DNA from: a virus
Length of the DNA stretch: 41,968 nt
Virus record (IMG/VR): IMGVR_UViG_3300031951_000392
Coordinates: 1-41,968 of that record
Direction: 5' to 3' (one strand)
The notes below the pieces were generated by a model. It saw only the letters and a list, made by a program, of their open reading frames with translations. It had not been told where the DNA came from and searched no databases. The translations under genes were made by a program, and so were the position numbers. Below, piece by piece: positions 1,557-38,888 of the stretch; the stretch's first letter is position 1, and every line of letters begins with the position of its first letter.

Positions 1557-1587
1557 TTTGGTAATTCCAAAACTATGTGTACTTTTG
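1557..1587 (+). promoter_or_regulatory. Bacteroidota-type promoter, rightward accessory operon
   Basis: TTTG (1557-1560), a spacer of exactly 19 bases, then TACTTTTG (1580-1587) is a perfect match to the Bacteroidetes sigma-ABfr consensus TTTG-N19-TAnnTTTG. Transcription is expected at about 1594. This sets the first translatable ATG at 1610 and excludes the ATG at 1577. Confidence 0.75.
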
Positions 1588-1609
1588 CATCATACTAAAA
1601 AACAAAACA

Positions 1610-1882
1610 ATGACATACTTACAGAAAGTAGAAAAAAGCACAAACATGGTAGAAATCAGCAAAATCATATTATCTGATATTTGGGCTGATTATTCTGTAT
1701 TATTTGCCAATAATTACAGACCATTTGTTAGGTCAAATGAAACTCAGGATAATTGGATAAAATCAGTAAATGATACGTATTTTAATAATATTAAATCAGA
1801 TAGGATTAACCTTTTTAATTCCATACCCGAAAGATTTAAATTAACGAAGATGTATAAGGAATTATCAAAAAAATTAGCTTAA
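1610..1882 (+). CDS. First gene of the plus-strand accessory operon, unknown function
   Basis: The product is 90 residues. The ATG at 1610 is preferred over one at 1577 because the strong promoter at 1557-1587 would start transcription between them, and because the leader aaaaacaaaaca before the ATG recurs before other genes of this operon. The protein resembles the product of 3451-3642 around a shared pattern of Tyr-Ser-x-x-Phe-Ala-Asn (YSVLFANNY here, YSAMFANGY there), so the two may be distant paralogs. No domain is recognised. It is followed by a conserved hairpin element at 1891-1915. Confidence 0.65.
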   Translation: MTYLQKVEKSTNMVEISKIILSDIWADYSVLFANNYRPFVRSNETQDNWIKSVNDTYFNNIKSDRINLFNSIPERFKLTKMYKELSKKLA

Positions 1883-1890
1883 TTTATTTC

Positions 1891-1915
1891 GGGGTGCAGC
1901 ATCCGAGCAACTGCA
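1891..1915 (+). ncRNA. GGGGYGCAGCATCC hairpin element, copy 1
   Basis: The run GGGG (1891-1894) is followed by TGCAG (1895-1899), an 11-base loop starting CATCC, and the complement CTGCA (1911-1915). A second copy with the same core lies at 35365-35387, also directly after the first gene of a plus-strand operon. There is no U-run after it, so a simple terminator is unlikely. A structured mRNA element, such as a processing, stability or protein-binding site, is my inference. Confidence 0.45.
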
Positions 1916-1940
1916 ATTAATTCACTTCAATTTATACCAC

Positions 1941-2228
1941 ATGCCACACATCAAAAACATAATCGACACGGACTGTTACTTGCAGTTTGATGACGCTACG
2001 GAACTAAGCAGATTCGCACACCGCAATGAGATATATCTTAGCCGTATGGCGTTCTACGATGACACGTATATCCGATTCTACTCGGACGGAACAGACCCAA
2101 CCCCGACAGACTTTATGGATGACGAACTACCAGCCCATCACTACAACAACATCACCGAATGGGTTAAACCTCCCTACGAAAAGTTAGAAGACGATTACTA
2201 TCAAGATTATATTGATTCACAATTATAA
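1941..2228 (+). CDS. Accessory protein of the 'DCYIQFD' paralogous family
   Basis: The product is 95 residues, acidic and aromatic-rich. It shares a clear layout with the product of 2868-3089: an Ile-rich start, Thr-Asp-Cys-Tyr, QFD, a short helix (ELSRFAHRN here, ELREWVKK-like there), then YIRFYSD and a C-terminal His-His pair before Asn (HHYNNI, HHHTNI). More distant relatives are encoded at 3086-3454 and 39971-40201. I know no function. A small two-layer alpha/beta fold is plausible. Several copies in one phage suggest related proteins with different targets. Confidence 0.7.
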   Translation: MPHIKNIIDTDCYLQFDDATELSRFAHRNEIYLSRMAFYDDTYIRFYSDGTDPTPTDFMDDELPAHHYNNITEWVKPPYEKLEDDYYQDYIDSQL

Positions 2229-2238
2229 AAACAAAACA

Positions 2239-2442
2239 ATGGAACACATCATCACACTACTTGCGGCAAGTACCGCTACACAGGCAGAATGCGAGGTTAT
2301 TATCGCAGCCATTCACGAATACGGACGCAGCCAATGGATAGAGGGCTTCAACCGAGCCGCTAACATTGCAGGTGTCGAAACACCCCACGCCCCGCAAATC
2401 AGGACAGAACCACGCACTAACCTTCAAAATACTGGGATATGA
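2239..2442 (+). CDS. Small helical protein, unknown function
   Basis: The product is 67 residues. The ATG at 2239 is chosen over 2212 because the latter lies inside the preceding gene, while 2239 has the recurring leader acaaaacaATG. The first half (MEHIITLLAASTATQAEC) and an amphipathic segment around IIAAIHEYGRSQWIEGFN look helical; the tail is Pro/Asn-rich and probably disordered. It ends in an ATGA overlap with the next gene. No family recognised. Confidence 0.6.
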   Translation: MEHIITLLAASTATQAECEVIIAAIHEYGRSQWIEGFNRAANIAGVETPHAPQIRTEPRTNLQNTGI

Positions 2443-2618
2443 GAAAGACAGTAATAACAACAGAATACAGCGCAACACTTGGCGCATTTCTTGACAGTAA
2501 AGACATTGAATGGAGTTACAAGAACAACGTCATTACATTTACGCTACCATACATGTCGCCATCTGCAATATTCGATTTTGCAGTTGAGTTTAAAGACTAT
2601 CAAAACAAACACTATTGA
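2439..2618 (+). CDS. Small beta-rich protein (59 residues), unknown function
   Basis: The ATG at 2439 overlaps the TGA of the previous gene (ATGA), and its own TGA at 2616-2618 is one base from the next ATG at 2620, so the gene fits exactly into the operon. The product begins MRKTVITTEYS, has a central WSYKNNVITFTLPYM strand pair, and ends DYQNKHY. The alternation of hydrophobic and polar residues suggests a small beta domain. No family recognised. Confidence 0.6.
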   Translation: MRKTVITTEYSATLGAFLDSKDIEWSYKNNVITFTLPYMSPSAIFDFAVEFKDYQNKHY

Positions 2619-2619
2619 T

Positions 2620-2871
2620 ATGAAAACCATCCGAGAACACTTAGAATCCATAGCCGACACGGAATTGAGGGAGGCGGCATTGAGGAACGCAGAAGCATAT
2701 ATAGGGCGCAGGATTGACTCTGACAAGACAAAGCACAAATACGAAGCACTTATGCAGTCATTTGAATGGAATGAAACGCCAGAAGGTTTTGAATTTTGGC
2801 ACAATGTAGCAAACTGCATATATCACGGCAACACGCCCACTTACCAACAATTTAAACACTTGATAAAATGA
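2620..2871 (+). CDS. Small helical accessory protein, unknown function
   Basis: The product is 83 residues, starting MKTIREHLESIAD. I took the ATG at 2620, just after the stop of the preceding gene; an upstream in-frame ATG at 2479 lies inside that gene and gives an implausible extension. The sequence is mostly helical with conserved-looking aromatic and His residues near the C-terminus (FEFWHNVANCIYHG). A pattern of helices followed by FxFWxxVxxxxY is frequent in small Bacteroidota phage proteins, but I cannot assign a role. Confidence 0.65.
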   Translation: MKTIREHLESIADTELREAALRNAEAYIGRRIDSDKTKHKYEALMQSFEWNETPEGFEFWHNVANCIYHGNTPTYQQFKHLIK

Positions 2872-3089
2872 AACACAAACTATCCGAAATAATCAACACC
2901 GATTGTTACATTCAGTTTGATAGCAATGAGCAGTTGAGGGAGTGGGTGAAGAAGGCGGGGATAAGATTATGCGGATACATAGACGACTTAGACGTTTACA
3001 TACGTTTTTATTCAGACGAAATGCCGTACCCGCTTGAGTTTCCAGTTCTTACACACCCCATCCACCACCACACAAACATCGAAATATGA
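2868..3089 (+). CDS. Accessory protein of the 'DCYIQFD' paralogous family
   Basis: The product is 73 residues and the closest relative of 1941-2228. Shared features in order: Ile-Ile-Asn-Thr-Asp-Cys-Tyr-Ile-Gln-Phe-Asp, a short amphipathic helix QLREWVKK, a turn with IRLCGYIDD, the strand VYIRFYSDE, and a terminal HHHTNIEI. It overlaps both neighbours by 4 bases (ATGA junctions). The His cluster at the C-terminus could bind metal, but that is conjecture. No annotated function known. Confidence 0.7.
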   Translation: MKHKLSEIINTDCYIQFDSNEQLREWVKKAGIRLCGYIDDLDVYIRFYSDEMPYPLEFPVLTHPIHHHTNIEI

Positions 3090-3454
3090 AACACATAAAA
3101 GACCTAACCGAACAAGACTGCATCCATTGTGCCACGCAGGAGGAATGGGATGCGATATGTGACAAGTTTGATATAACATTACCGCGTACCACATTTAATG
3201 TATTTGGTAGAGATAGCGTTATTTACCCTGTTCAAAAAAAGTACGGCTATCTGCTTAATGCAAATACGGACGGGGCTGTTGCCCACCCCGCATCCGACTT
3301 TCTCACGCCACATGTATCGGTATTGACAGAGATAGGGGATTGTAAGGTGATAAAGAACGGAGGCGATGTGATAGTAATGACAGGCAATGTGGTTATCACG
3401 CTCACGCCACCCGTATTGAAACATATTCAGGAACTATTAAACCAACAACAATGA
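3086..3454 (+). CDS. Larger member of the small accessory family, unknown function
   Basis: The product is 122 residues. The first half follows the family plan (IKDLTEQDCIHCAT, EEWDAICDKFDITLPR, then a strand with SVIYPVQ). The second half adds a beta-rich segment (DCKVIKNGGDVIVMTGN and VVITLTPPV). The extension looks like an independent small domain with alternating Val/Ile and polar residues. It is joined to the next gene by a 4-base overlap. I infer a common ancestor with 1941-2228 and 2868-3089, with low confidence for this more divergent member. Confidence 0.65.
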   Translation: MKHIKDLTEQDCIHCATQEEWDAICDKFDITLPRTTFNVFGRDSVIYPVQKKYGYLLNANTDGAVAHPASDFLTPHVSVLTEIGDCKVIKNGGDVIVMTGNVVITLTPPVLKHIQELLNQQQ

Positions 3455-3642
3455 TAAACTACGAACAAGAGGTGAAGAAGGTGTACCCCAAAGCGTATTC
3501 TGTTTATGAATCATATAGTGCAATGTTTGCTAACGGATATGAGATAATAAATGAAGGCGTTTTATTAGCAGAAATGTGTATTACCGAAGATTACGCATGG
3601 CAATCAGCCTACGAAAAACTTAAAAAGGAGGGGAAGATATGA
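3451..3642 (+). CDS. Small accessory protein, unknown function
   Basis: The product is 63 residues with the start MINYEQEVKKVYPKAYSVY, a core YSAMFANGYEII, and a helical tail ending AYEKLKKEGKI. This layout, N-terminal Tyr-Glu-x-Glu-Val-x-x-x-Tyr-Pro and a C-terminal W-x-x-A-x-x-x-L helix, is a type I associate with small hypothetical proteins of Bacteroidota phages. It shares the YSxxFANxY core with the product of 1610-1882. It overlaps the genes on both sides by 4 bases. Confidence 0.65.
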   Translation: MINYEQEVKKVYPKAYSVYESYSAMFANGYEIINEGVLLAEMCITEDYAWQSAYEKLKKEGKI

Positions 3643-3905
3643 AACAGACAAAACTAAACTTTAATGGGGTTGCCGTCCTATGCAGTACATGGCAGCAGAT
3701 GTTGCATCTTGCGGAATTGGCGAGGGAGCAGGGGTATAAGACGGAACACGAATCGTTTAATGAAAATTCATTTAATGAAGGCGATGTGTATTTTCACGTA
3801 GGCAATACGCATATATGGAACTTATGTAGCGATTTACTACTACCCGTCATCCCCTACACCACATTCATCAACCCGCCCGTAGACGATAGTGTTTATGGGT
3901 GTTAG
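3639..3905 (+). CDS. Small accessory protein, possible divergent paralog
   Basis: The product is 88 residues, beginning with a strand LNFNGVAVLCS and followed by a helix around WQQMLHLAELAREQGYK. The strand-Cys-helix arrangement is like the DCYIQFD family (strand, acid or Ser, helix), with the central part replaced by an Asn/Glu-rich loop and a strand DVYFHVGN. It is the last gene before the only sizeable gap in the operon, which holds an interleaved-stem RNA element. Confidence 0.6.
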   Translation: MKQTKLNFNGVAVLCSTWQQMLHLAELAREQGYKTEHESFNENSFNEGDVYFHVGNTHIWNLCSDLLLPVIPYTTFINPPVDDSVYGC

Positions 3906-3937
3906 GATTTCTCAAAACAGTTACTTACCTTCACCAC

Positions 3938-4041
3938 GTCAAACTATTACTTAAATGAAATTATTAGCCCCGTTCTGCCTGCATATTGACACATCCGTGT
4001 CGGTAATAGTTTGACACCTTCGCAGCAGACGGGGCGTTTTT
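3938..4041 (+). ncRNA. Interleaved-stem RNA element with terminator-like 3' end
   Basis: Four segments occur in the order A-B-A'-B'. A (3938-3950, GTCAAACTATTAC) is the perfect 13-base complement of A' (4003-4015). B (3967-3982) pairs with B' (4022-4035) over 14 base pairs with two single-base bulges. Between B and A' is a small hairpin C (GACAC 3988-3992, GTGTC 3997-4001). B' is followed by a five-T run (4037-4041). The order A-B-A'-B' means the two long stems either form a pseudoknot or exclude each other. The 148-base gap 3906-4053 contains no gene. A terminator or antiterminator switch is my inference. Confidence 0.6.
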
Positions 4042-4053
4042 AAACTGAACAAC

Positions 4054-4323
4054 ATGAAAAAGATTGTAGTATTCGTAGTAGTGTATCTGCTAAGTGCGTT
4101 TGCGATGTATAAGTGGGTACATATAGCACACTCAAAAGGCGGCAGGTGCGAAACAATGCAGGTGCAGATAAGGGATATGGTATATACACTTATGCCGATA
4201 AGCAACACCATTACCGCTGTGGTTATGTGGATAACATTGCCGCCTTATGCAGAAGATACAGCAGCACTAAACAAATTCTTTAACATCAAAAACACAAACA
4301 ATGACACACCAACACAACAGTAA
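4054..4323 (+). CDS. Small inner-membrane protein, two spans
   Basis: The product is 89 residues. A first span follows the Lys-Lys start (VVFVVVYLLSAFAMY), then a short basic/Cys loop (HSKGGRCETM), a second hydrophobic segment around ISNTITAVVMWITL, and a polar Asn/Thr-rich tail. This fits a two-span membrane protein. It begins directly after the interleaved RNA element and is therefore the most obvious target of any control by it. A perfect DnaA-box sequence (TGTGGATAA, 4226-4234) lies inside the gene. Function unknown. Confidence 0.6.
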   Translation: MKKIVVFVVVYLLSAFAMYKWVHIAHSKGGRCETMQVQIRDMVYTLMPISNTITAVVMWITLPPYAEDTAALNKFFNIKNTNNDTPTQQ

Positions 4324-4588
4324 CGGTAGGGAATGGCTGATGGTGGAAGTGCAAGGCGACACAATAACAGTTGATATGGACACTATGCCTAACGGTAGGT
4401 GGTCTTACCATTCCGACAGCCTAACGATCACCGAGGAACAGGCGGGGGAGATAGTGGATAAGAAAGCCGCACTATGGGTAGATTATGAGAATGCAGCAGA
4501 CTCAATGCTTACAGCTATCAGTTCCTACCGCTCCCTACTCCGCTCCAAACAAATCAATTCACGAGTAATAAATCTTGTACGGATATGA
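4301..4588 (+). CDS. Soluble accessory protein, unknown function
   Basis: The product is 95 residues. It starts with a His/Asn-rich segment, has a beta-like region (WLMVEVQGDTITVDM) and a C-terminal helix containing AADSMLTAISSYRSLLRSK. It overlaps the previous gene by 23 bases, using ATG at 4301 with the A-rich leader caaaaacacaaacaATG. It overlaps the next gene by 4 bases. No domain recognised. Confidence 0.6.
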   Translation: MTHQHNSNGREWLMVEVQGDTITVDMDTMPNGRWSYHSDSLTITEEQAGEIVDKKAALWVDYENAADSMLTAISSYRSLLRSKQINSRVINLVRI

Positions 4589-5013
4589 AACGAACTTACA
4601 TAGCCACAACGTCCGAAGCAAAGGCGTTGCATGATGGCACACAGACAGCGATAATAGTTAAGCACAGCAACAAGCAACCCTACGCCATCGGTCAGGAAGT
4701 AGTGGTGAGGGAGGTGTGGATGTACCGACACAAACACGATAAGTATTACCACAAGGCAGACTATCCAGAATTTGAACCGTATGCACATCAAGGCTGGCAA
4801 TCCCCCGCCACTATGCCCGTATCAGCAGCACGTACACGGTTCAGGATAGTTAGTTGTGAGGCGGTGAGGGTGAGGGGTGTCGAAGGGCATGTGTGCAATG
4901 ATTTACCGATAGACCTACCGTGTGAATATCAGCAATACATCATCCACAAACTCGGTCAATCCGCATGGGACAATAACGATTACATTTTTTACTATAAAAT
5001 TGAGAAGATATGA
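4585..5013 (+). CDS. ASCH-like domain protein
   Basis: The 142-residue protein follows the outline of phage ASCH-type proteins: a segment QPYAIGQEVVVREVW (position and switch to a WxREx strand), a loop of Tyr/His residues, then a MPVSAARTRFRIVSCEAV stretch. The last resembles the usual MPRWASRIxLxVxxVxV motif of this family. ASCH domains have a PUA-like fold and are linked to RNA binding or nucleoside amidohydrolase activity; in phages the role is mostly unknown. The Trp normally following MPR is absent here. The assignment rests on these motifs only. Confidence 0.5.
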   Translation: MKRTYIATTSEAKALHDGTQTAIIVKHSNKQPYAIGQEVVVREVWMYRHKHDKYYHKADYPEFEPYAHQGWQSPATMPVSAARTRFRIVSCEAVRVRGVEGHVCNDLPIDLPCEYQQYIIHKLGQSAWDNNDYIFYYKIEKI

Positions 5014-5396
5014 TACACGCCATATACATTTACCTTATAATTAGCGGCTTTCTTTTTGGCTTTTCAGTAGGTGATTCTTTTTCTGAAGAACATTGGTTGG
5101 TCAATTTGATTAGGTGCATTTTATGGCTACCTGAATTGATATACAGACTACTCGAAAACACCTTTAACTGGGTTAAACGCCAAGACATTGTTATATTCCC
5201 ATTGGTTGACTTATTCGGGTACAACCCGCTAAAGAAAACAGAACAGGGAATCAGGAACAACACCTTTGCTGAATTGGATAAAACATTTGTTCCAGAATGG
5301 CAGAAAACAGCGATAGGCAGGTATAAGATAAAAGCATTACGTAAACTTCAAAAACTAAACAACTATGAGCAAGACACCTTTACAGACTGCTATTGA
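5010..5396 (+). CDS. Membrane-associated accessory protein
   Basis: The product is 128 residues. The first 22 residues are hydrophobic (AIYIYLIISGFLFGFSVGD) and form a probable transmembrane helix or uncleaved signal anchor. A second moderately hydrophobic amphipathic segment covers about residues 30-47. The C-terminal half is charged and helical (RYKIKALRKLQKL). No catalytic motif or family is visible. It overlaps the next gene by 32 bases. Confidence 0.6.
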   Translation: MIHAIYIYLIISGFLFGFSVGDSFSEEHWLVNLIRCILWLPELIYRLLENTFNWVKRQDIVIFPLVDLFGYNPLKKTEQGIRNNTFAELDKTFVPEWQKTAIGRYKIKALRKLQKLNNYEQDTFTDCY

Positions 5397-5583
5397 GCAA
5401 GTACAGAAAATGCCATTACCTGATTTGGGGGTAATAGCTATCCTCACCGCCCTACTCCCAACAGAACGGGATGTGATAGAAACGGCATACGATGAGGGGC
5501 GTGAAGATGGACTGGAAAATATTGTAAAGATACCCGATTACTTCACGACAAAATTCAACGACAATGAACACACCAAGAGTTAG
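5365..5583 (+). CDS. Small acidic helical protein, unknown function
   Basis: The product is 72 residues with helices around TPLQTAIEQVQKM and ERDVIETAYDEGRED. It resembles small helical hypothetical proteins common in Bacteroidota phages, in which a Leu-rich first helix is followed by Leu-x-x-E-x-x-x-I-x-x-A-Y/F. The ATG at 5365 follows the A-rich leader aaaactaaacaact. It overlaps the previous gene by 32 and the next by 20 bases. Confidence 0.6.
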   Translation: MSKTPLQTAIEQVQKMPLPDLGVIAILTALLPTERDVIETAYDEGREDGLENIVKIPDYFTTKFNDNEHTKS

Positions 5584-5788
5584 CCGTGAGCAGGCTGATA
5601 ACACAATCACAGTAACGGGCTGCGGGGATTGCCCGATGTACAGAGAAGAGAAAGGACACGGAGATTATTGGCATTCGTGTAGGGCGACTAAATTCGGGTA
5701 TTACACTATTGAACCAGTAGCGGAACAATGCCCTTTGACACAATCATCACTAACCATTCAACTCAAACAAGATGCGCCACAAACCTAA
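5564..5788 (+). CDS. Cys-rich putative zinc-binding protein
   Basis: The product is 74 residues. Four Cys residues in the pattern C-x2-C (GCGDCPMY), then C in WHSCRAT, then C in AEQCPL could hold one zinc ion. This arrangement, with a short first knuckle and a late Cys-Pro, is seen in small phage and plasmid zinc-ribbon-like proteins. Such proteins often bind nucleic acids or act as adaptors, but no partner is evident here. It overlaps the next gene by 17 bases. Confidence 0.6.
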   Translation: MNTPRVSREQADNTITVTGCGDCPMYREEKGHGDYWHSCRATKFGYYTIEPVAEQCPLTQSSLTIQLKQDAPQT

Positions 5789-5957
5789 ACCACTAACCCA
5801 ATCCGTTCTATTCCTGCTACCATTCACCGTATTGTACACGGCTGCTGCTATTCGATATGGCATACACCCAGATACATGGAGCATGGGGTTACGTATTATA
5901 GTTGCGGGTGGTGGGTTTGGGATCGGGGCGGTGATAACTAAATTATACAGACGATGA
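5772..5957 (+). CDS. Two-span small membrane protein
   Basis: The product is 61 residues. After a basic start (MRHKPKPL) there is one hydrophobic segment around SVLFLLPFTVLYTAAAI and a second, Gly-rich one (IIVAGGGFGIGAVI) ending in a basic LYRR tail. Both ends would lie in the cytoplasm by the positive-inside rule. It shares an ATGA overlap with the methyltransferase gene. A holin role is conceivable from topology, but its place in the early operon argues against it. Confidence 0.55.
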   Translation: MRHKPKPLTQSVLFLLPFTVLYTAAAIRYGIHPDTWSMGLRIIVAGGGFGIGAVITKLYRR

Positions 5958-6577
5958 ACGTACTTGAATTATTTGCAGGTAGTCGATCAATAGGAAATGC
6001 GGCAGAACAATTAGGGCATAGTGTCTTTTCGGTTGACTGGCAGCAGTTTGACGGAATAAATTTAGCAAAGGACATTGAACTACTAACAAAAGAAGATGTG
6101 CCTTTTGTTCCTGATTTTGTTTGGGCTTCACCCGATTGCACTACATACACCATTGCAGCAATAAGCACACACCGAAATGGAACTACACCTAAAACACCTT
6201 ATGCCGCAAAATGCGATAGGGTAAATCAGCACTTTATATCTCTTATTCGTGAATGGATTTTAGCTAATCCTAATATGGTTTTCTTTATTGAAAATCCAAG
6301 AGGTATGTTACGCAAAATGCCATTTATGAAGTCATTTATACGCCATACGGTGTGGTATTGTCAGTACGGAGATAATCGGGCAAAGCCTACTGACATTTGG
6401 ACTAATTGCGCAAATTGGCAACCAAGACCATTATGCAGAAACAATAATCCTAATTGCAACCATGAACGTGCGCCAAGAGGGAGCAAAACAGGCACGCAGG
6501 GATTAAAAGGTTCTTACACGCGATCTGTTATTCCTGAACAATTATGCACAGAAATACTTAATTCCACTTTTTTATGA
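5954..6577 (+). CDS. Small C5-cytosine DNA methyltransferase
   Basis: The 207-residue protein has the key C5-methyltransferase motifs: motif I near the start (LELFAGSRSIG, SAM binding), motif IV ASPDCTTY with the catalytic Cys, motif VI FFIENPRG, and a motif VIII-like region QYGDNRAKPTDIW. It is much shorter than restriction-linked enzymes (usually 300 or more residues) and has little room for a target-recognition domain. Such compact enzymes are typical of phages, where they methylate phage DNA against restriction. In motif IV the usual Pro before Cys is Asp (SPDC). No restriction gene is nearby. The family is confident; activity and target are unknown. Confidence 0.8.
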   Translation: MNVLELFAGSRSIGNAAEQLGHSVFSVDWQQFDGINLAKDIELLTKEDVPFVPDFVWASPDCTTYTIAAISTHRNGTTPKTPYAAKCDRVNQHFISLIREWILANPNMVFFIENPRGMLRKMPFMKSFIRHTVWYCQYGDNRAKPTDIWTNCANWQPRPLCRNNNPNCNHERAPRGSKTGTQGLKGSYTRSVIPEQLCTEILNSTFL

Positions 6578-6678
6578 ACAACCACGAAACATGGGCAATC
6601 TGCGCCTGTGGAAACGAGCAAGACATTAGATTAACTAACACCTGCGAGGAGTGCGGTTCTCGGATTGTACTGCCTTAA
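6574..6678 (+). CDS. Zinc-ribbon microprotein (34 residues)
   Basis: The ATG at 6574 overlaps the methyltransferase stop (ATGA). The product contains a CACG knuckle near residues 10-13 and a CEECG knuckle about 14 residues later (NTCEECGSRIVLP), a minimal zinc ribbon. Four Cys at this spacing in so small a protein suggest a real folded knuckle. It is the last gene of the plus operon, 8 bases before the convergent terminator. Its role is unknown. Confidence 0.55.
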   Translation: MNNHETWAICACGNEQDIRLTNTCEECGSRIVLP

Positions 6679-6686
6679 CTGTGATA

Positions 6687-6714
6687 CCGCTGCCTATTCT
6701 TAGGTGGCGGTTTT
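6687..6714. terminator. Bidirectional terminator between convergent operons
   Basis: CCGCTGCCTA (6687-6696), loop TTCT, TAGGTGGCGG (6701-6710) form a 10-bp stem with two G-T pairs, followed by TTTTAAAA. It serves the plus-strand accessory operon. On the opposite strand it overlaps the stop of the metallophosphoesterase gene (6713). Confidence 0.7.
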
Positions 6715-7858
6715 AAAACAAATGCGTTATCCTCGCTACTTGTCCATGAACCTTGCTATGGACAAACGCCTCAATAGCTTTCGGTGCGTGTTGATACCCA
6801 TTACGGTGATGCCATGAATCCGTACCCGATGGCGAACGTAACGATTCGACACAAACGCTCATGTAGTCCTTAGACTTTTTGTGATGGATATGGTGCGTGT
6901 AGTAGTACCGATGCTTACATGTAGCCCAACTATCAGACGCTTCATGTGCCATCAGCAGGGCTAAATCGCCCTCCCTTGCGCCATCTCCATGTGTTGTGCC
7001 TATTAGATTCAGACCGTATGTAAAGTACTTACGATGAGCGATGCTAACGTCAAACGTAACCTGTTCGCATCGGTTGAACCACGCCTGTAAAGTTTGTGCC
7101 AAAAAGAAACCATGCACATAGTCATGGTTGGATGGGTTATACTGAAAATGTACGGGCGCAATCGGTAGCAGCATTTCGATGCACTCGACCATGAGTTTAC
7201 GGGCTAACGTGAACGCATCGTACCACATCATACTAACATCCTGCGGTGTGCCGCTTGTAGTCGTGTTTTTCGGGCTATCTACGTGGAGTATGTCATTACC
7301 CGCCACGAATAGTATCTGGTCAATTTTGTAGCCCTGTGCTTTTTGTATGATACCCGTTACGCCATCTACCACCCTGCGATATATTACGTTGTGGTTGCTT
7401 TCGTCGCCAGTTTCAAATGCGGAGCATAGTTTATTCAGGTGAATATCGGCAGGGTCAATAACGAGCAGGTACGAATCGGTATCGGGTTTGTACACGATTC
7501 GTTTGTACTTTGGGGCGTGTTCGGTAATGTCCTGTATAATGCTTTCCCGTATTTCATCGTATGCCGTTTGTTTGCCCTTGACGAATAGCGAAAAGTGTTT
7601 GCCTTTATGCCAATAGTGCTTAACATCCTCAATCGGTACGCCTACCGTTTCGCATTGTTCGGCTAATGCAGGGTGGTGCATACTACGCTGCACCTTACGG
7701 ATATGTTTACGGAAACTTTCTTTGTTGGCGGGCAGGTTGTGTTTCTTGATTATCTTGTCGGCTACGCCACGAAACGAACCGCCATCACGCAGTTCTTGTT
7801 CTATTTCTTCCCGTAGGTGGTCGTACTTCTTTACTTCGGTGTGTTGGTTGTGCGACAT
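6713..7858 (-). CDS. Calcineurin-like metallophosphoesterase
   Basis: The 381-residue protein shows the metallophosphoesterase series: a D-x-H element (IDPADIHLNKL, about residues 135-144), GND (187-189), an N-x-x-N-H-D element (NPSNHDY, 241-247), TTHGDG (288-293) and a late HHIHHKK cluster. These ligate two metals. About 120 residues precede the domain, beginning with a helix-turn-helix-like region (FRGVADKIIKKHNLPANKESFRKH) that could bind DNA. The protein is shorter than SbcD and has no SbcC partner. In Bacteroidota phages such enzymes are common near structural or lysis genes and may process DNA. It starts one base from the endolysin stop, so it belongs to the lysis operon. Confidence 0.75.
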   Translation of the reverse strand: MSHNQHTEVKKYDHLREEIEQELRDGGSFRGVADKIIKKHNLPANKESFRKHIRKVQRSMHHPALAEQCETVGVPIEDVKHYWHKGKHFSLFVKGKQTAYDEIRESIIQDITEHAPKYKRIVYKPDTDSYLLVIDPADIHLNKLCSAFETGDESNHNVIYRRVVDGVTGIIQKAQGYKIDQILFVAGNDILHVDSPKNTTTSGTPQDVSMMWYDAFTLARKLMVECIEMLLPIAPVHFQYNPSNHDYVHGFFLAQTLQAWFNRCEQVTFDVSIAHRKYFTYGLNLIGTTHGDGAREGDLALLMAHEASDSWATCKHRYYYTHHIHHKKSKDYMSVCVESLRSPSGTDSWHHRNGYQHAPKAIEAFVHSKVHGQVARITHLF

Positions 7859-38282: not shown

Positions 38283-38819
38283 TTAAAATGGTTCAATCCC
38301 AGTTATCTTTGGCAAACTTGCCGACTTTTTAGCATTACAACTTCTGCATAATAATTGCAGGTTCTTTATATCCGACTTACCTCCTCTTGATACAGGGAAT
38401 ATATGGTCTATTTCAACCCTTTCAGTAGTTCCGCAAGTAACACATTTATTTTGGTATCTTGCCATTACTGCCTCACGAACCGCTTTAGGTATGTACCTTA
38501 TTGGCTTTGTTACTTTGTTTTTCTTTATTGAATATCGGCACATCCTCGCTCCATCGTATCGGTGCATACCAGTGTATTCGATAAAATTGTTTTCAAGGTA
38601 CAATTTAATTATGCCGTAATCAACGGGTCTGCCATCGTAGATGTATTGACCAGACTCAGGATAAAACCAAATATAACATTCTGTGTCCCTAAAAATACTT
38701 AGGTGTGATGGGCGTTTCGGCTTTTTATCAGCCTCAATCATTGCATTAATGATGTCAAATACATATTCTTTTAAGCAATCCATAAAATAAAAATCCCATT
38801 GAGGTTCAAGGACTGCCAT
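38283..38819 (-). CDS. HNH endonuclease
   Basis: The 178-residue protein has a clear HNH nuclease at its C-terminus: a zinc knuckle NKCVTCG (Cys126/Cys129), the catalytic VEIDHIFPVSRGG with His139, KNLQLLCRSCN with Asn152 and the second Cys pair (158/161). The first 100 residues are an unrecognised aromatic-rich region that may recognise DNA. It cuts DNA with a metal ion and is either a homing-type nuclease or serves packaging. It is transcribed from its own TATATTTG box and its start codon lies in a long hairpin (38794-38837). It is not next to the terminase. Confidence 0.85.
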   Translation of the reverse strand: MAVLEPQWDFYFMDCLKEYVFDIINAMIEADKKPKRPSHLSIFRDTECYIWFYPESGQYIYDGRPVDYGIIKLYLENNFIEYTGMHRYDGARMCRYSIKKNKVTKPIRYIPKAVREAVMARYQNKCVTCGTTERVEIDHIFPVSRGGKSDIKNLQLLCRSCNAKKSASLPKITGIEPF

Positions 38820-38837
38820 CCTATCCCCTCAATGGGA
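38794..38837 (-). promoter_or_regulatory. Hairpin enclosing the HNH start codon
   Basis: In the mRNA, TCCCATTGAGG (38837-38827 read on the minus strand) pairs perfectly with CCTCAATGGGA (38804-38794). Inside lies a second stem AGGA/TCCT with the ATG (38819-38817) at its apex. An 11-bp perfect repeat at this place is unlikely by chance and could limit translation or bind the nuclease itself. Confidence 0.55.
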
Positions 38838-38853
38838 CAATAAATATCTTAAT

Positions 38854-38871
38854 TAGCTGTGGCAGCAGCTA
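38854..38871 (-). other. Small leader hairpin upstream of the HNH gene
   Basis: TAGCTG (38854-38859) and CAGCTA (38866-38871) form a perfect 6-bp stem with a six-base loop in the 5' leader between the promoter box and the start-codon hairpin. Confidence 0.35.
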
Positions 38872-38880
38872 TATACCCTG

Positions 38881-38888
38881 CAAATATA
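38881..38888 (-). promoter_or_regulatory. -7 element TATATTTG for the HNH gene
   Basis: The minus-strand TATATTTG matches TAnnTTTG. It directly follows the stop of the upstream gene (38889) and lies 62 bases ahead of the HNH ATG. No -33 TTTG is seen. Confidence 0.4.

Follow-up and report, generated by a model that had tools for sequence, protein, structure and literature searches.

The window analysed here, i.e., the whole 41,968-nt stretch of viral DNA, contains in its accessory operon a gap of 148 nt, flanked by the ORFs 3639-3905 and 4054-4323, in which two long inverted repeats are interleaved; the question that this locus raises is whether these repeats form a structured RNA, and what such an RNA would do for the gene that follows. 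Arm A (GTCAAACTATTAC, 3938-3950, plus strand, as for all the features of this element) is the perfect 13-bp complement of arm A' (GTAATAGTTTGAC, 4003-4015), and arm B (GCCCCG(U)TCTGC(C)TGC, 3967-3982) pairs over 14 bp with arm B' (GCAGCAGACGGGGC, 4022-4035), leaving a U and a C bulged; the four arms lie exactly where an earlier note on this DNA had placed them, and the interleaved order A-B-A'-B' that it described is borne out. According to sequence and fold, a small hairpin (GACAC-ATCC-GTGTC, 3988-4001) is located between B and A', and B' is followed by a T-run (4037-4041) that would be a U-tract in the RNA. The next ORF (4054-4323), coding for a membrane-protein-like product of 89 aa without a family match, begins 12 nt past the T-run.

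Among the perfect inverted repeats within 120 nt, that of A and A' is the longest of the whole 42-kb window, and 0.08 repeats of 13 bp are expected in simulated sequences. Moreover, the best pair of interleaved perfect stems in the 148-nt gap sums to 20 bp, a value equalled by none of 3000 dinucleotide shuffles of the gap (which reached at most 18). Taken alone, the stems are worth -13.8 kcal/mol (A/A') and -21.6 kcal/mol (B/B'), and they have no nucleotide in common. The ordinary fold retains only B/B' and the inner hairpin (z = -3.2); A/A' is missing from it because programs of this kind cannot draw crossing stems.

Two further features of the element, missed in the earlier note, are a -7-like box (TACCTTCA, 3926-3933) and a predicted ORF of 19 codons (MKLLAPFCLHIDTSVSVIV, 3955-4014) whose stop codon falls within A'. 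The Bacteroidota -7 element is TANNTTTG, with a G at -5 (PMC6847099). The promoter layout is TTAG-N20-TACCTTCA in the window and TTTG-N19-TACTTTTA in its homologue L002 (see below). Between the end of either box and A there are 4 nt, which leads to the prediction that transcription begins with the first nucleotide of A. The window RNA is thus predicted to start at 3938, although its box is imperfect (4/6 conserved positions) and its -33 element is weak (TTAG).

Using the exonuclease (6713-7858) as the lead, we retrieved 59 related viral loci, among them L002, a syntenic phage of 42 kb (G001). The accessory operon is strongly diverged between the two phages, the window region 1587-6574 having no nucleotide match in L002 at E 1e-5; the element is still present at the corresponding place (4064-3969, minus strand). 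The check for compensatory changes in the arms that the earlier note had called for was carried out on these two sequences, on copies trimmed because MAFFT misaligned the full elements, which fixes the register and makes the pair counts lean towards structure: all 27 pairs are kept in L002, eight of them changed on both sides (four in A/A' and four in B/B'), none is broken in either helix, and one is changed via G-U, while slid-partner controls are 30-43% paired. This G-U pair is valid only for the RNA of the element's strand. In arm B of L002, a U and a C are bulged at the same positions as in the window, the U-tract has its counterpart in TTTATTTTG, and the small hairpin at 3988-4001 is absent. 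The covariation shows that the two helices have been selected together, and it supports the claim of an RNA structure before a gene, in which two stems interleave and the end resembles a terminator. Furthermore, L002 has linkers (L1 19, L2 1, and L3 10) of the kind expected in an ordinary H-type pseudoknot, and compensatory change has conserved, in these two sequences, both of the interleaved helices that such a pseudoknot requires.

L002 is the single close homologue that was found. Nucleotide searches of known phages and of genome contigs with the element returned short chance matches only, the proteins neighbouring the element had no relatives in IMG/VR, and scans for the GCCCCG/CGGGGC pattern retrieved similar arms in L002 only. 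A covariance model built from the window and L002, weak since it embeds two sequences, retrieved no additional element from 43 viral records, 296 Bacteroidota genomes, and 57 loci; duplex-energy scanning was dropped as too permissive.

A second element occurs in the window itself, on the minus strand (38888-38784). It consists of a -7 box (TATATTTG, 38881-38888), a 5' hairpin P1 (TAGCTG-CTGCCA-CAGCTA, 38854-38871) with the apical loop CTGCCA (38865-38860), and a terminator-like hairpin (TCCCATTGAGG...CCTCAATGGGA, 38837-38794; 38784-38837 for the whole feature) whose stem is an 11-bp repeat and whose inner loop TGGCAG (38818-38813) is complementary to the P1 loop. A U-tract (38793-38784) follows, and then the ORF of an HNH endonuclease, from 38783. 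The equivalent in L002, AGTTG-CTGGCA-CAACT, is located upstream of the corresponding gene start and has the loops CTGGCA and TGCCAG; a close relative (L199) has yet another loop pair.

The presence of such elements was then checked in other genomes. A first scan, requiring a promoter box before A-B-A'-B' and a U-tract, gave 60 matches in 1.9 Mb vs. 7.7 in shuffles, mostly near primase genes of other Bacteroidota phages; in the Flavobacterium phages snusmum and hattifnatt the element precedes a helicase gene, and the Flavobacterium phage 11b harbors the same arrangement with different arms. Most members of this class have A as the apical loop of a hairpin at the 5' end, with A' placed in the apical loop of a second, terminator-like hairpin, which implies that the two hairpins kiss. 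A dedicated kissing scan, whose criteria were shaped on the first matches so that the counts are partly post hoc, retrieved 53 matches, 33 of them distinct, in phage sets totalling 2.67 Mb, vs. 2.6 per shuffle; Bacteroidota chromosomes (0.68 Mb) and other viral contigs (1.16 Mb) gave no match. In a set fetched later, the earlier scan gave 23 matches vs. 16 expected from shuffles (15 vs. 5.7 at score 36), and the kissing scan 11 vs. 0.8. The second element of the window belongs to this kissing-hairpin class, its 5' hairpin loop pairing with the loop of the terminator-like hairpin. The element at 3938-4041 has the promoter box just upstream, the U-tract, and the close start codon, and it lacks a closing P1 stem, provided that its RNA begins at 3938; judging from its pairing pattern, it is an H-type pseudoknot variant of a class widespread in Bacteroidota phages, in most members of which the pairing, as the covariation of relatives shows, is that of kissing hairpins.

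Of the 33 distinct elements, 27 are followed at a distance of 6-25 nt by an ORF of 35 aa or more, and U-rich sequence stands ahead of the ATG in almost all the leader members. The downstream genes include replication initiators, helicases, a ParB-like protein, and an HNH nuclease, a set that suggests early genes. The pairing is conserved in three families, for which the cells given below count sequences and not independent events. In family K1 (9 sequences), the kissing helix is paired in 63/63 cells, and six of its seven pairs show changes on both sides; family F4, with 6 distinct sequences, has A/A' paired in 42/42 cells, with three pairs changed on both sides and three more in B/B'; in family F3 (28 sequences), the kissing helix is paired in 196/196 cells and the terminator helix in 308/308, with 8 of the 11 pairs of the latter changed on both sides. 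Slid controls for the three families paired in 21-47% of cells, and the G-U pairs fit the RNA of the element's strand only.

Each family has features of its own. F4 resembles the window element: its linker begins with ATGAAA, B contains a bulged U, A' is preceded by a hairpin (different from that at 3988-4001), and the link to B' is short. In F3 (L225, L223, L220, and relatives), the element is embedded in an open frame, which in L225 and L223 continues without a shift into the gene downstream, so that RNA structure and coding sequence overlap. K1 (L022, L050, L028, L051, L052, L046, L029, L044, and L036) is a conserved RNA of about 95 nt whose 7-nt kissing loop is hypervariable yet always complementary, and mostly no gene lies behind it; K1 therefore looks like a stand-alone small RNA, and part of the class may consist of stand-alone RNAs.

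Taken as a whole, the explanation that we favor, to which we assign somewhat better than an even chance, is that of a promoter-proximal leader RNA of about 100 nt, whose 5' end (A) pairs inside the loop of the terminator-like hairpin B/B' and whose A/A' pairing gates conditional termination. We infer that B/B' and the U-tract form a terminator; conditional termination is our best guess at the function, and the direction and the signal of the proposed control are likewise guesses. Transcription would begin at A and, as RNA polymerase passes, A would capture A' before B' exists; this capture would bring B and B' together, and the resulting terminator hairpin and U-tract would stop transcription before the gene. 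If A or A' were occupied, whether by a protein of the phage or the host, by another RNA, or by a ribosome translating the leader ORF, the terminator would be weaker and the gene would be expressed. In favor of this explanation are the covariation in window and L002, K1, F4, and F3, with at most 47% of cells paired in the slid controls; the abundance of the elements in phage sets and their absence from the host chromosomes searched; their own promoter box and their position shortly before an ORF; the G-U pairs, which fit the RNA of one strand only; and the likeness of the B stem and U-tract to an intrinsic terminator. Against it stand the imperfect promoter of the window element, the one close homologue from which the covariation of this element derives, the K1 members that mostly lack a following gene, and the U-rich stretch before the ATG, which could serve Bacteroidota translation instead of termination.

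Two other explanations are unlikely. According to the first, the element would be an independent small RNA, about 100 nt long and equipped with a promoter and a terminator of its own, that would bind a protein or act in trans; the gene would be expressed by read-through or from upstream. Both ends of the RNA would fall within stems, with promoter and terminator signals flanking them, and the K1 members, together with the hypervariability of the kissing loop among close relatives, agree with this possibility; the ending of most members 6-25 nt before a start codon does not. The second, whose probability we put barely lower, is a module of the 5'-UTR for stability or translation, in which the structure would guard the 5' end and leave a U-rich stretch single-stranded ahead of the start codon, with no termination. 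A predicted start at the very beginning of A, or near the base of P1, and the U-rich sequence before the ATG would be in agreement with such a module, as would the absence of Shine-Dalgarno sequences in Bacteroidota (PMC6847099). Such a module would not need a GC-rich hairpin abutting a U-tract, and the K1 members mostly have no gene that it could serve.

An attenuator controlled by the ribosome, in which translation of the leader ORF would mask B and A' and allow read-through, appears improbable. The short ORF of L002 (MKLKSLPRTCCCVVD) ends at the same place as that of the window, with its stop codon in the same TGAC of A', and the F4 members, as read from the alignment, have an ATGAAA-led ORF across the structure, so that the ribosome model is possible for this variant only. 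The peptide sequence is not conserved and other families, including the second element of the window, lack such an ORF; since many members are without it, attenuation by a leader peptide is kept as a rival only.

Equally improbable, in our estimate, is a mutually exclusive switch, with A/A' as the read-through form and B/B' as the terminator form, which the earlier note had preferred. A/A' can indeed form ahead of B/B' during transcription, and A' is separated from B' by just 6 nt in the window, several relatives having a linker of 0 nt. In the class, however, the partners are mostly apical loops of 6-9 nt, and of exactly 6-7 nt in L339, L340, and K1; loops of these sizes are known from kissing complexes that leave both hairpins formed. 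This aspect, together with the arms sharing no base, unlike those of classical attenuators, makes coexistence of A/A' and B/B' more likely than competition, and, with the H-type linkers of L002, suggests that the preference for mutual exclusion was probably wrong. A coarse rigid-helix test was compatible with the window pseudoknot and with shorter linkers too, and so does not discriminate. Finally, a DNA-level element (an operator, an invertible segment, or a recombination site) or chance, which the perfect inverted repeat might have brought to mind, is very remote: it is contradicted by compensatory changes in two interleaved repeats, by G-U pairs fitting one strand, and by the polarity of the U-tract.

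The statement of the earlier note that no described phage element has this layout holds in our searches, i.e., in Rfam 15 and in the literature consulted, which included few subscription journals or preprints. No match to the elements was obtained in Rfam 15 from the window (its element at E up to 10), from L002, L062, L096, and L193 (among which the only match was a tRNA), or from nine relatives; structured RNAs near Bacteroidetes phage genes are known from a gut survey, in the consulted passages of which this layout is not among them (PMC8040213). The functional kind, leader RNAs with terminator-like hairpins, is probably known, and for the architecture no description was found.

Like intrinsic (Rho-independent) terminators and attenuator leaders, the window element has a GC-rich stem followed by a U-tract and lies just before a gene. 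The loop of such terminators is short (3-8 nt), whereas 39 nt separate B from B' here (6-7 nt in several relatives), and a simple terminator scan of the element returned a 5-bp stem only. Classical attenuators rely on overlapping alternative helices, whereas here the second helix pairs the terminator loop; such an attenuator is ruled out by A/A' and B/B' being without common nucleotides. In pT181-type attenuation, it is the stem of the terminator that the leader's 5' segment pairs with; the class described here is similar in that a 5' segment pairs downstream and, as we propose, affects the terminator, with the difference that the loop and not the stem is paired. Kissing complexes of the TAR-TAR* and ColE1 RNAI-RNAII type are formed by two hairpins with complementary apical loops of 6-9 nt, as in our class, in which both hairpins are embedded in one short RNA, the second is terminator-like, and the loop varies among close relatives. 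The window element and L002 share with H-type pseudoknots the A-B-A'-B' order and workable linkers, and differ in their long helices (13 and 14-16 bp) and in the final U-tract. The antitermination RNAs HK022 put and Bacillus EAR are likewise structured promoter-proximal leaders of phages or operons acting in cis; they are not themselves ended by a U-tract, in contrast to the class described here. Two other candidates were rejected: an HDV-like ribozyme (no Rfam match, an A of 13 bp, and no P4) and a type III toxin-antitoxin RNA (a single copy instead of tandem repeats, and a downstream gene without family match, hence not ToxN-like).

It is possible, with odds that we place a little short of even, that early and replication genes of Bacteroidota phages form a regulon controlled by a new class of cis-acting regulatory RNA, in which the loop of a promoter-proximal terminator is kissed by a 5' hairpin and the loop code diversifies between close relatives. 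The control of gene expression in these phages is little known, and a recurrent leader would offer a handle on that of early genes, being easily recognised from its promoter box, 5' hairpin, terminator-like hairpin with complementary loop, U-tract, and start codon. Its loop varies among close relatives while the pairing remains perfect throughout, a code-like behavior that is unusual in a cis-acting leader; the mechanistic question raised is what effect the pairing of its loop has on a terminator. This is testable in the cultured Flavobacterium phages snusmum, hattifnatt, and 11b, which carry the element.

Similar A-B-A'-B' arrangements with a U-tract were also observed in L062 (minus strand, A near 1703 of the reverse strand), L193 (3730-3860), and L096 (minus strand, near 1640-1530); those of L062 and L193 directly follow sigma-70-type promoters (2 real vs. 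0 in shuffles), and the architecture may extend past Bacteroidota phages.

As for the accessory regions, that of L002 harbors a tRNA gene (4436-4534, minus strand) shortly upstream of the element, which the window lacks, and codes for a protein with a long array of short repeats (AACACGGGC..., 6670-7030, minus strand); another repeat protein is encoded at the edge of the accessory region of L004 (16500-17135). Small accessory proteins or remnants that are otherwise different share a similar C-terminal motif, SVYGC, SVYGC, and SVEGC, each followed by the stop codon, the sites being the end of 3639-3905 in the window, L002 near 7440-7330 (minus strand), and L004 16278-16325.
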